A DNA stretch of 47,328 bases from Microcaldota archaeon. Its GTDB lineage: Archaea; Micrarchaeota; Micrarchaeia; Micrarchaeales; CABMGC01. The stretch spans positions 1-47,328 of the forward strand of contig JAGDXY010000026.1 of assembly GCA_023256495.1 (NCBI GenBank), read 5' to 3'. The notes under the pieces are model-generated. The model was not told the origin of the DNA and did no database searches. It saw nothing but the letters and a program-made list of their open reading frames with translations. Numbering within the stretch: the stretch's first letter is position 1; each line of letters opens with the position of its first letter. Below are positions 17,624-30,272 of this stretch, one piece after another. Position numbers and translations under genes: made by a program.

Positions 17624-19855
17624 ATGAAAAAATCTAGCAAAAAAGAGGCAAAGAAGGCACAAGCAGCTATAGAGTATTTAACTACCTATGGCTGGGCATT
17701 GATAATAGCTGCTATTGCCTTAATTGCTTTATATACCTTTGTATTTGCTCCTTCAATTCTTGTACCTAATTCATGTTCATTTACTTATGGTGCTTATTGT
17801 CAAGATTTTGTCTTTGGCTCAAATACAACAGCATCAAGAATTACCCTTTTTCTTACAAATATTGAGAACTATCCAATAATAAATCCATATGCAGAGATAA
17901 GTAGTTCATTTGGTAATTTTACAGGTTCATGTGCACCAAAGTTTGTATTGCGTGGCGGAGCAATTATATGCAATATTAATATACCTCAATCCTTTTCTAC
18001 AGGTACCTTTGTAAGCGGTTCATTAACTTTATATGCTACTCCCTGCCCAAGTGGTAATTATAGCTCTTGCGAGTCAATAAGCAAACAAGCATATGTTGGT
18101 TCATTCAAAGCCCATGTTGTTCCATTTTTGCAAAATACACCATTAACTATTTCATTAACTGCTCAAAATACAACACAAGCAGCAAATGGTGCATTGGATC
18201 GATTAACTGCTCTTGTAAAGATGCTTGGTTATCCTCTTGGTGGTGCAACAGTTAATTTTACTTCTAATTCTATTAATGCAAGCATATCACCAAATTTTGC
18301 AACAACAGGTTCAAATGGTGAAGCGATTTCTTATATAAGCTCATATACAACTGGTAATGTAATCGTAAAAGCAACATTTGCAAATGTAAGTGCAAATATA
18401 ACAATAGATTTTGTACCACCAGTCAATATTTCTTTTTCATTGATAAACACTCAAATATGCAAAGGAACAACAGCTACGAGCTCAGCAATTCTCGAGATTA
18501 ATAACAAATATTATTATTGCTCAAACTTCCCTGTTTATATAAGCGTTGCCCCTGGTTCAAAAATTTATTATAAATTCCTTTCCCCATTATCTGGTCCAAT
18601 CAATACAAGATATATATGGAATAGCACTTCTGGTCTTGGTGCAACAAACCAATCTGGCTATATAATTGCTATTTCAAATGGCACTGTTGTTGCATCTTAT
18701 AAAACACAATATTATCTAACAATGCTTGCTAATCCTAGCAATGGTGGTTCTGTATCACCAAATAGCAATTGGTACAATGCATCTTCACCAGTTACCATTG
18801 TTGCTACTCCAAATACAAATTATTTCTTCAAGAATTGGCTTGGCACTGGTAATGAGAGCTATACAGGAACAAGTCCAAGTGCACAAATAACAATAAACTC
18901 ACCAATAAATGAAACTGCCTATTTCTATTCAACCTCTACAACAACATCTACATCTTCTACTTCAACAACAACTTCTACAACAATTACAACCACTTCAACC
19001 TCTACAACTACTTCAACAACAACTTCTACAACAATTACAACTACTTCAACAAGAAGTTCAACATCAACATCGACATCAATAACAACTTCATCAACATCTA
19101 CTACAATATCAACTACATCAACTACATCGACTTTACCGGAATGCAATTGTGGTGAAAATTGGTATGCTTGTAATGGTACACTAGAAGAACAAGTATGTAG
19201 TGGTTGTCCTAGCAATTGTCCTAATTCAAGTATAAGTCAAATTACGTGTTCTGGTGCAGTTTATAGACAAGAAACTTGTGAAGCTTCAACATCAACTTCT
19301 ACAACAATTACAACTACTTCAACAAGAAGTTCAACATCAACAACTACTTTATCTACAACATCAACTGCGACATCGTCTTTATCTACAACATCAACTGCGA
19401 CATCGTCTACGACTTCTTCAACTTCAACAACAGCCTCTGGGGGTGGTTGTGTTCTTGGCAATGATACAATTACCCTATATAATGGAGCAACTATACCTAT
19501 ATCCGATTTAAGAGTTGGTGATTATGTGCTAGCATATGATAATGGTAGTTTAGAAGTTTCAAGAGTTACAGGTATATCATATTCATACACAGATATTATA
19601 GAATATATTAATAGCAAGCTTGGAGTAACCCCAACAGACCAGCCACTATATATAAGAAATTCAACATATACTGGTTGGATCAAGAACCCAGATGAAATAA
19701 AAATTGGTTGGTACATGTATAATCCAGTAAACAACACATGGATTATGGTCCAAAACATTAGCTATAAAGTAGGAGTATTTAAGGTATATGATATAGTTAC
19801 ATCGAAATCTAATACCTTTATAGTTGATAATTCATTAGCAGATGTGAAAACATGA
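17624..19855 (+). CDS. Pilin-signal (class III) multidomain adhesin with C-terminal Hint domain
   Basis: KKAQAAIEYLTTYGWALIIAAIALIAL signal; Big_1/invasin-like Ig region; InlB B-repeat-like GGSVSPNSNWYNASSPVTIVATPNTNYFFKNWLG; Ser/Thr-rich linkers; Cys-rich module; C-terminal GGGCVLGNDTITLYNGATIPISDLRVGDYVLAYD...VTPTDQPLYIRN...VYDIVTSKSNTFIVDNSLADVKT. Confidence 0.82.
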   Translation: MKKSSKKEAKKAQAAIEYLTTYGWALIIAAIALIALYTFVFAPSILVPNSCSFTYGAYCQDFVFGSNTTASRITLFLTNIENYPIINPYAEISSSFGNFTGSCAPKFVLRGGAIICNINIPQSFSTGTFVSGSLTLYATPCPSGNYSSCESISKQAYVGSFKAHVVPFLQNTPLTISLTAQNTTQAANGALDRLTALVKMLGYPLGGATVNFTSNSINASISPNFATTGSNGEAISYISSYTTGNVIVKATFANVSANITIDFVPPVNISFSLINTQICKGTTATSSAILEINNKYYYCSNFPVYISVAPGSKIYYKFLSPLSGPINTRYIWNSTSGLGATNQSGYIIAISNGTVVASYKTQYYLTMLANPSNGGSVSPNSNWYNASSPVTIVATPNTNYFFKNWLGTGNESYTGTSPSAQITINSPINETAYFYSTSTTTSTSSTSTTTSTTITTTSTSTTTSTTTSTTITTTSTRSSTSTSTSITTSSTSTTISTTSTTSTLPECNCGENWYACNGTLEEQVCSGCPSNCPNSSISQITCSGAVYRQETCEASTSTSTTITTTSTRSSTSTTTLSTTSTATSSLSTTSTATSSTTSSTSTTASGGGCVLGNDTITLYNGATIPISDLRVGDYVLAYDNGSLEVSRVTGISYSYTDIIEYINSKLGVTPTDQPLYIRNSTYTGWIKNPDEIKIGWYMYNPVNNTWIMVQNISYKVGVFKVYDIVTSKSNTFIVDNSLADVKT
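19020..19069 (+). repeat. 50-bp direct repeat, copy 1
   Basis: CAACTTCTACAACAATTACAACTACTTCAACAAGAAGTTCAACATCAACA; identical copy at 19293-19342. Confidence 0.92.
19293..19342 (+). repeat. 50-bp direct repeat, copy 2
   Basis: Identical to 19020-19069; offset 273 bp = 91 codons. Confidence 0.92.
19348..19407 (+). repeat. Perfect 2 x 30-bp tandem repeat (10-aa unit LSTTSTATSS)
   Basis: TTTATCTACAACATCAACTGCGACATCGTC twice in direct succession. Confidence 0.92.
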
Positions 19856-27924: not shown

Positions 27925-29358
27925 CTAACCTTTCATAACACCGATAGGTTTATTTTTGCTTATTATTTTTGATATACCTGCCTTTTCTACTATAGAGACT
28001 ACTTCATCTACATCCTTATAGGCCCACTCAGCCTCTTCGCTTATTAGATTTTTGCTTTTTACCATTATTTCAATACCTTTTTCTCTCATTGTCGATAATG
28101 TCTTATTTGGCGGTATCTCTCTAACTGCTTGATGCCTTGACATTACTCTTCCAGCTCCATGGCATGTAGAGCCTAAGCTTTCAGTTAATGATTGAGGCAT
28201 ACCGCTTAGTATATAGCTAGATGTGCCCATGCTACCTGGTATAAGTACAGGTTGACCTATATCTCTATACGCTTTTGGTAGTTCTATCCTACCTTTAGGA
28301 AAAGCCCTTGTAGCACCTTTTCTATGTACAAAAACCTTAACTCTCTTGTTTTCTATTATATGCTCCTCTTCTTTTATTATATTATGTGCTACATCATATA
28401 ATATAAATAAGCCCAATTCATCGAAGCTTTTATTAAATACTCTTTCAAATACCTTTCTTATATTATGTGTGATTATCTCTCTATTAGTAAATGCATAGTT
28501 TACTGCTGCCTTCATAGCCTCTAGGTAATCTATAGCTATATGATTTGATATATGTGCATATCCTAATTCAGGATCAACGAGCTTTATATTATTCTTTTTG
28601 TTATAATCACTTATCCTCTTTATATAATCGCTAGCTATTTGATGACCAAAGCCTCTTGAACCTGTATGCAGCATAATCAATACTTGATTTTCAAATAATC
28701 CATATTCTTTTGCAATATTGTCATCATAGATCTTTTCTACTCTTTGCAATTCTAAGAAGTGATTGCCAGCCCCTATAGTACCTAGTTCATCAATACCTCT
28801 CTTTATTGCTTCTTGGCTTACCTTTTCTATATTTGCTCCTTTCATTGATCCATTTTCTTCTATATAATCTATATCTTCTTTTATTCCTATACCTTTATCT
28901 ATAATATAATTAACGCCTTCTTCTCCTATATTTTTTATATCATGCTCTGTTAAGCCTATTTTTATTTTACTTCCAACACCACTTGGTACTGCTTTAAATA
29001 ACTCACTTATTATTGTCTTTAATTTTGGTTTTATCTCATCATAAGTAAGGTTTGTTTTTATAACTCTAACTCCACAATTTATATCAAAGCCACATATGCC
29101 TGGCGATACTATACCGTCTTCTACAGGTGAAGCTAATACACCACCTACAGGAAAACCATAACCCTCATGTGCATCTGGCATTAATAATAAATTGCCTATT
29201 ATATTTGGCAATGTTGAAGCATTGATTATTTGGTTTAATGTCCTATCTCTTTTTATATTTTCTAAAAGCTTATTATTTGAGAATATTACTATATTTGCAT
29301 TCATATTGCCTTCTTTCTCTATTATATATTTAACCTCATTTATTTGTTTAATATTCAT
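27925..29358 (-). CDS. rtcB: RNA ligase RtcB (tRNA-splicing ligase)
   Basis: LMPDAHEGYGFPVGGVLA, GICGFDINCGVRVI, GTIGAGNHFLELQ, LMLHTGSRGFGHQ-type (IMLHTGSRGFGHQIASDY), PVLIPGSMGTSSYIL, STCHGAGRVMSRHQA. Confidence 0.97.
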   Translation of the reverse strand: MNIKQINEVKYIIEKEGNMNANIVIFSNNKLLENIKRDRTLNQIINASTLPNIIGNLLLMPDAHEGYGFPVGGVLASPVEDGIVSPGICGFDINCGVRVIKTNLTYDEIKPKLKTIISELFKAVPSGVGSKIKIGLTEHDIKNIGEEGVNYIIDKGIGIKEDIDYIEENGSMKGANIEKVSQEAIKRGIDELGTIGAGNHFLELQRVEKIYDDNIAKEYGLFENQVLIMLHTGSRGFGHQIASDYIKRISDYNKKNNIKLVDPELGYAHISNHIAIDYLEAMKAAVNYAFTNREIITHNIRKVFERVFNKSFDELGLFILYDVAHNIIKEEEHIIENKRVKVFVHRKGATRAFPKGRIELPKAYRDIGQPVLIPGSMGTSSYILSGMPQSLTESLGSTCHGAGRVMSRHQAVREIPPNKTLSTMREKGIEIMVKSKNLISEEAEWAYKDVDEVVSIVEKAGISKIISKNKPIGVMKG

Positions 29359-29450: not shown

Positions 29451-29546
29451 GCAGGGGTGGCGGAGCCTGGTCAAACGCGGCGGACTCAAGATCCGCTGGC
29501 TTAGAGCCTGCGAGAGTTCAATATTGAATAAATCTCTCCCCCTGCA
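29451..29546 (+). tRNA. tRNA-Leu(CAA) with 10-nt insertion in the T loop
   Basis: Acceptor GCAGGGG/CCCCTGC + A73; anticodon arm GCGGA-CTCAAGA-TCCGC; variable arm GGCT-TAG-AGCC; T stem GAGAG/CTCTC enclosing a 17-nt loop TTCAATATTGAATAAAT; removing 10 nt leaves TTCAAAT. Confidence 0.88.
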
Positions 29547-29561
29547 CTAAAAGGTGATAAA

Positions 29562-30272
29562 ATGGCAAAATCTATATCTAAAAAATCATCTAAGAATACT
29601 AAAAATAGTAAGTCAAAGAAGTTTAGCATTTTGGACAAGATAAGAGATGTAGAGATTAAGGATAGTGTTAAGTTTAATATAGACATTTATCCACAATCAG
29701 AGGAATTTACAAGTGCAGCAGCATGTGCATTAATGGTTTTAAAGTTTCTAAATAAAAACGTAAATCCAGATAAAGAAGAAGAATATAAGATATGGCAAGA
29801 AGCAGTTAATGGAAGCATATGGTATGGTTCTAAGTATGGTTTGGCTTATGCATTAGCAAAGAGAGGTGCAGATGTTAAGATAATAAGTAATACAGAAGAT
29901 CCAGGGTATGAAAAGAAAATGGCAGTAGAAGAGAACTTTAATTTAGATGCACTTGAAGCATCATTTAATGAGATTAAAGATAAGGCATTTAGTCTTAATG
30001 TAGAAGAAGCAAAAGCCCCAGTTAGTATAAATCTAATAAAAAAGGCACTCTCTGCAAAGTATATACCTATATTGCTAGTAAATGCCTCTTTAATAAATAC
30101 ATATCTAGATGAATTTCCTCATTGGGTGGTAGTAAAGGGCTATGAAAAAGATATATTCTATATAAATGACCCATATACAGGCAATGAGGTTACAGTCGAT
30201 GCAGCTGTATTAAAAGATGCTTTAGGCTTCGATGACAATATGCATATGTTACTAGTAAGAGCTAAGAAATGA
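29562..30272 (+). CDS. C39-like (papain-fold) peptidase-related protein, basic N-terminus
   Basis: IDIYPQSEEFTSAAACALMVLKFLN...FPHWVVVKGYEKDIFYINDPYTG. Confidence 0.7.
   Translation: MAKSISKKSSKNTKNSKSKKFSILDKIRDVEIKDSVKFNIDIYPQSEEFTSAAACALMVLKFLNKNVNPDKEEEYKIWQEAVNGSIWYGSKYGLAYALAKRGADVKIISNTEDPGYEKKMAVEENFNLDALEASFNEIKDKAFSLNVEEAKAPVSINLIKKALSAKYIPILLVNASLINTYLDEFPHWVVVKGYEKDIFYINDPYTGNEVTVDAAVLKDALGFDDNMHMLLVRAKK

Follow-up and report, generated by a model that had tools for sequence, protein, structure and literature searches.

Introduction

The tRNA introns of ARMAN-1 and ARMAN-2 and the epsilon2 EndA were reportedly treated by Fujishima in 2011 and by Hirata in 2012, and it is possible that a T-loop intron in an ARMAN tRNA-Leu(CAA) was already listed in the former. 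The epsilon2 EndA cleaves introns with BHL and hBH motifs at various tRNA positions (PMC4033280; PMC6379350). The locus described here shares with the ARMAN system the phylum, an EndA orthologue whose catalytic and ARMAN-loop residues are the same, and a motif of the kind that epsilon2 EndA accepts as BHL and hBH substrates at various positions (PMC4033280); it differs in the tRNA concerned, as the tested substrates that are named are pre-tRNA-Ile(UAU) and pre-tRNA-Cys(GCA) (PMC12397907).

The standard motif of archaeal tRNA introns is a 4-bp helix between two 3-nt bulges, T-arm introns are known at 53/54, 56/57 and 59/60 in a list that ends with "etc.", and the intron lengths quoted are 11-129 nt (PMC4090602). 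With the non-canonical archaeal introns (Marck & Grosjean 2003; Sugahara 2008; PMC4090602) the tRNA-Leu(CAA) intron has in common a 4-bp helix between exon and intron, cuts placed in a bulge and a loop, a location in the T arm and a freely varying centre; it differs in its site, 58/59, which is outside the quoted list, and in its length of 10 nt, which is below the quoted range. A first-pass annotation of this DNA had noted that T-loop introns are known in archaea and that this one would be very short. Many non-canonical introns are translocatable (PMC4390854), whereas the tRNA-Leu(CAA) T-loop intron is nearly fixed, order-wide, in one isoacceptor. It is a very short example of a known intron kind, conserved across an order, and introns with relaxed motifs are recognised as belonging to the wider family of archaeal introns spliced by EndA.

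Two eukaryotic cases are also comparable. The intron of eukaryotic tRNA-Leu(CAA) is found in the same isoacceptor, is spliced by the homologous TSEN and often forms a BHL (PMC6379350), but it is located at 37/38 and common descent is without evidence. The T-arm introns of the Guillardia nucleomorph, 3-24 nt long and at non-canonical positions (PMC4090602), are a likeness in that they are very short and their removal has been demonstrated; the nucleomorph is eukaryotic, and homology with the present intron is not claimed. The analysis below indicates that the locus is very probably a functional, single-copy tRNA-Leu(CAA) gene with a 10-nt T-loop intron at 58/59, cut by an epsilon2 EndA and joined by RtcB.

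Results and Discussion

The tRNA-Leu(CAA) gene and its genome

The window, by which we mean the whole analysed stretch of 47,328 nt, is contig C15 of a genome assembly of 605,534 bases in 28 contigs that is 87.7% complete. Coordinates and sequence of the gene (Table 1) are as the first-pass annotation gave them, as is its T stem, GAGAG/CTCTC, around 17 nt (TTCAATATTGAATAAAT, 29517-29533), where a T loop usually has 7. ARAGORN missed the gene on the unspliced window, and a scan of the window with Rfam at the gathering threshold listed two other tRNAs and had no entry for Leu(CAA); in a search of the whole genome with the Rfam tRNA model the gene scored 44.4 bits. Because a default tRNA finder can miss such genes, a tRNA may be wrongly called absent. 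Elsewhere in the window, the start of an archaeal 16S gene occupies positions 1-356, and 17624-19855 encodes a predicted surface protein; it has long repeats rich in Thr/Ser and, judged by eye, its C-terminal part resembles a Hint/intein-type domain.

Table 1. Features of the tRNA-Leu(CAA) locus and its neighbours, in window coordinates
Feature	Position	Strand	Basis or remark
tRNA-Leu(CAA) gene with T-loop intron	29451-29546	+	exons 29451-29521 and 29532-29546
Acceptor stem, GCAGGGG paired with CCCCTGC	29451-29457 and 29539-29545	+	sequence
Anticodon CAA	29487-29489	+	sequence; ARAGORN on spliced form
T stem, 5' strand GAGAG (positions 49-53)	29512-29516	+	sequence
Central helix, 5' (exon) strand G53-T54-T55-C56	29516-29519	+	pairs with intron in 107/107
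Intron, 10 nt, TATTGAATAA, position 58/59	29522-29531	+	sole register yielding TTCAAAT in 107/107
Central helix, 3' (intron) strand GAAT	29526-29529	+	GAAC in most relatives; all tetramers pair
3' bulge AAA in slipped register, with predicted 3' cut 29531/29532	29530-29532	+	slippage possible in 105/107; precursor centroid
TCTC (positions 60-63), partner of GAGA 29512-29515 in slipped pre-tRNA	29533-29536	+	precursor fold; 105/107
T stem of mature tRNA, 3' strand CTCTC	29534-29538	+	sequence
Discriminator A	29546	+	sequence
RtcB tRNA-splicing ligase gene	27925-29358	-	divergent, 92 bp upstream of tRNA; Pfam PF01139, E 3.1e-157
C39-peptidase-like (DUF3335) gene	29562-30272		starts 15 nt past tRNA 3' end; GGTGAT ahead of ATG

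TTCAAAT loops are present in all four remaining Leu tRNAs of the genome (TAG, CAG, GAG and TAA). A second Leu(CAA) gene, the presence of which the first-pass annotation had raised as a possibility, was not found in the 88%-complete assembly; three further genomic matches to ACTCAAGAT all lie outside tRNAs and were rejected. This result bears on the idea that the gene has decayed or fallen silent and that UUG is read by another Leu tRNA, for which Leu(TAA), by wobble, would be available. Against it stand the lack of a second CAA gene in the assembly and the occurrence of the gene in 40/40 relatives with acceptor and T stems intact; since the gene is conserved order-wide, decay is disfavoured and we consider it extremely improbable.

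Insertions were also seen in other Leu tRNAs. The Leu(GAG) tRNA of the genome has an intron in its anticodon loop, and the D loop of its tRNA-Leu(TAA) (L075, G000:C21:2080-2320), a gene that ARAGORN misses, holds an intron-like insertion; Leu(TAA) of a relative (L219, genome G002) likewise has a D-loop insertion.

Conservation of the insertion among relatives

From the relatives and the named genomes, 118 distinct sequences were parsed as the gene, and the removal of one misparse (L083) left 117 orthologues; two sequences that were not parsed (L101 and L102) are outside this number. An insertion of 10-21 nt is present at the same site in 107 of the 117, the 10-nt insertion of the window being the shortest, and a plain 7-nt loop in the other 10. 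Among the named genomes, those with exact-pattern relatives belong almost without exception to Candidatus Micrarchaeota, and it is from these names that we assign the source to the Micrarchaeota. They include Micrarchaeum sp. A_DKE, whose gene (L105) has an 18-nt T-loop intron, and the complete genome ARM-1. As more than 100 related genes carry it at the same spot, the T-loop intron is real and almost certainly spliced. An assembly error was rejected on the ground that the insertion is common to over a hundred genomes, and chance was excluded by the same-site insertion in 107/117 orthologues, with invariant flanks and variable centres.

In the phylum sample the insertion was found in 72/76 genomes of the order and was missing in G002, G028, G036 and G038. 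Intronless G002 and the carrier G045 belong to one genus, and G028 shares its genus with several carriers; such precise presence and absence within a genus is the behaviour of an intron. Since intronless alleles occur in some relatives, members of the order can do without the intron.

In two intronless Leu(CAA) genes (L034 and L179) the T stem, GTGAG/CTCTC, has a T50-T64 mismatch, which is possibly a trace of the route of intron loss. The two paralogues examined lend no support to gene conversion by another Leu tRNA as that route in G002: their T stems read GAGAG, that of the intronless CAA gene GTGAG, with the T50-T64 mismatch. Two further Leu(CAA) genes (L094 and L165) combine a normal T loop with an insertion of about 50 nt on the 3' side of the anticodon.

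Intron boundaries and the exon-intron helix

Because of runs of A, the boundaries of the intron are ambiguous within any single sequence. Across the 107 carriers, T-loop positions 1-5 (TTCAA) and the last two (AT) are invariant while the centre is free to vary, and only the register TTCAA|intron|AT, i.e. 58/59, restores the canonical TTCAAAT in every one of them; the excision of 29522-29531 offered as an example by the first-pass annotation is this register. ARAGORN recognised none of the 107 unspliced genes and, after removal of the intron in silico, all 107, each as tRNA-Leu(caa).

The four bases G53-T54-T55-C56 at the end of the 5' exon pair in full with a tetramer in the 3' part of the intron in 107/107 sequences. 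This tetramer is GAAC in 80, GAGC in 10, GGAC in 10, GAAT in 6 and GGGC in 1, so that every deviation from GAAC preserves pairing by wobble; when it was slid by up to 4 bases as a control, pairing was found in at most 1/107. The 107 sequences are related and non-independent, and departures from GAAC were nevertheless found in several genera. A few long variants, such as the 21-nt one of L114, are able to fold an inner helix.

The first-pass annotation had proposed a 4-bp helix of TTCA with TGAA. Its exon-intron helix is retained here, but with a different pairing, as G53TTC56/GAAT is what is kept in all relatives: the base ahead of GAA, T in 78 sequences, is A, C or G in the other 29. The fourth TTCA/TGAA pair is thus unconserved, and the pairing was rejected as the conserved helix in favour of GTTC/GAAC and is regarded as an extension peculiar to the window. 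We consider it improbable that a real intron is held by the TTCA/TGAA helix with a 5-nt bulge, even though the window's T arm, taken with its flanks, has its minimum-energy fold in this form, or that it is excised in another register, such as 57/58 or 59/60. The A runs that blur the boundaries would allow other registers in any one sequence, but 59/60 fails in the 31 sequences that have a T at loop position 6, the window's included, and registers further 5' fail in variants with a C or T close to the 3' end.

The pattern at 58/59 also bears on the possibility that the mature tRNA has an unusual architecture in which the T loop stays enlarged. The gene appears intact and the loop can fold into a hairpin of its own, as such an architecture would have it, yet the insert varies freely in sequence and, between 10 and 21 nt, in length while the TTCAAAT bases and the exon-intron helix are kept in every relative, and intronless alleles occur inside the same genus. 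Moreover, a loop of 17-28 nt would disrupt the well-established T54-A58 and D-loop/T-loop contacts of tRNA. Retention of the loop is thus very improbable, and removal of a 10-nt intron at 58/59 remains the preferred reading.

Fold of the precursor

If the T stem keeps its normal pairing, 5 nt are bulged out on the 3' side, as the first-pass annotation had it (TAAAT). A two-base slip of the T stem, in which G49-A52 pair with T60-C63, is possible in 105/107 sequences and leaves a bulge of exactly 3 nt, which in the window is AAA. For the full-length window pre-tRNA the centroid of the predicted folds is the slipped form and the minimum the normal form, and family-wide the predicted energies of the two registers are about equal (mean difference -0.1 kcal/mol); either bulge size may therefore be the one present at cleavage. 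In the slipped form each cut falls two bases beyond the 4-bp helix, which is consistent with the standard motif. Stability of the fold is not exceptional in all relatives, with a z of -0.65 for one.

The arrangement does not have the two 3-nt bulges with helices on both sides of a strict BHB. Since its 5' side is a loop and the 3' bulge measures 3 nt in the slipped register only, we class it as a relaxed BHL; the first-pass annotation had arrived at the same class, with a loop and a 3' bulge.

Splicing enzymes and neighbouring genes

An epsilon-type EndA, to which the first-pass annotation had pointed, is encoded in the genome (L041:916-2043) as a full-length orthologue of the ARMAN-2 epsilon2 enzyme (PDB 4fz2/9w2k; E 1.8e-120); with phmmer, residues 13-375 of the query match 14-387 of the chain, i.e. 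a single chain of alphaN-alpha-betaC units. Following the residue roles given for ARMAN-2 EndA (PMC12397907), the catalytic Y236/H251/K282 align to Y226/H239/K270, Y160/K161 of the ARMAN-specific loop are kept as Y151/K152, and the bulge-binding R275/W384 as R263/W372. EndA is present in 39/40 relatives. The genome thus encodes both an endonuclease for relaxed motifs and a ligase, RtcB, whose gene is adjacent to the tRNA and which likely joins the exons; a homologue of RtcB was found in 58/137 related loci.

On the other side of the tRNA, a homologue of the C39-peptidase-like gene was found in 123 related loci, and in every one of these it follows closely downstream on the same strand. As it keeps this place, the tRNA and the C39-peptidase-like mRNA may share a transcript.

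Proposed processing of the precursor

For tRNA-Leu(CAA), the layout of the gene and its conservation, the helix, the one register common to all carriers and the presence of both enzymes are observations; from these we infer that the precursor is cut and ligated, and in which fold the enzyme meets it. In the precursor, exon bases G53-T54-T55-C56 would pair with GAAT of the intron over 4 bp, leaving an open loop on the 5' side and, on the 3' side, a bulge that would be AAA after a two-base slip of the T stem and 5 nt long without it. The epsilon2 EndA would then cut at 29521/29522 and 29531/29532, two bases past each helix strand, and RtcB would ligate the exons to give the canonical TTCAAAT T loop. 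The first-pass reading of an intron cut by a broad-specificity EndA appears, from the sequence data, to fit the relatives, the helix, the restored tRNA, the intronless alleles and the epsilon2 EndA alike.

Whether selection retains the intron as a processing checkpoint is doubtful. If it did, the intron while present would block formation of the elbow between T loop and D loop, so that EndA and RtcB would have to precede T-loop modification, trimming by RNase P and RNase Z and release of the downstream mRNA; this would account for order-wide retention at a single site of a single isoacceptor.

An intron of 10 nt, which is essentially one helix strand and two short single strands, would place a lower bound of 10 nt on the sequence needed by a broad-specificity splicing endonuclease. 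The order supplies 107 natural variants of one substrate along with several alleles that lack the intron, so that the relaxed-motif rules of epsilon2 EndA become directly testable.

Introns of the same design in other tRNAs

Matches to the intron pattern were also obtained in other families; four of them (L213, L214, L216 and L221) lie outside tRNAs and were rejected. In genomes from other families of the class, T-loop introns of the same design were found: Thr(CGT) in G090 and G077 has one of 14 nt, and another tRNA, in G113, has one of 16 nt together with a second intron in the anticodon arm; these intron-bearing tRNAs (L211, L212 and L215) were recognised only after removal. As nearly all tRNAs have GTTC at positions 53-56, an intron with GAACAA at its end could suit almost any of them.
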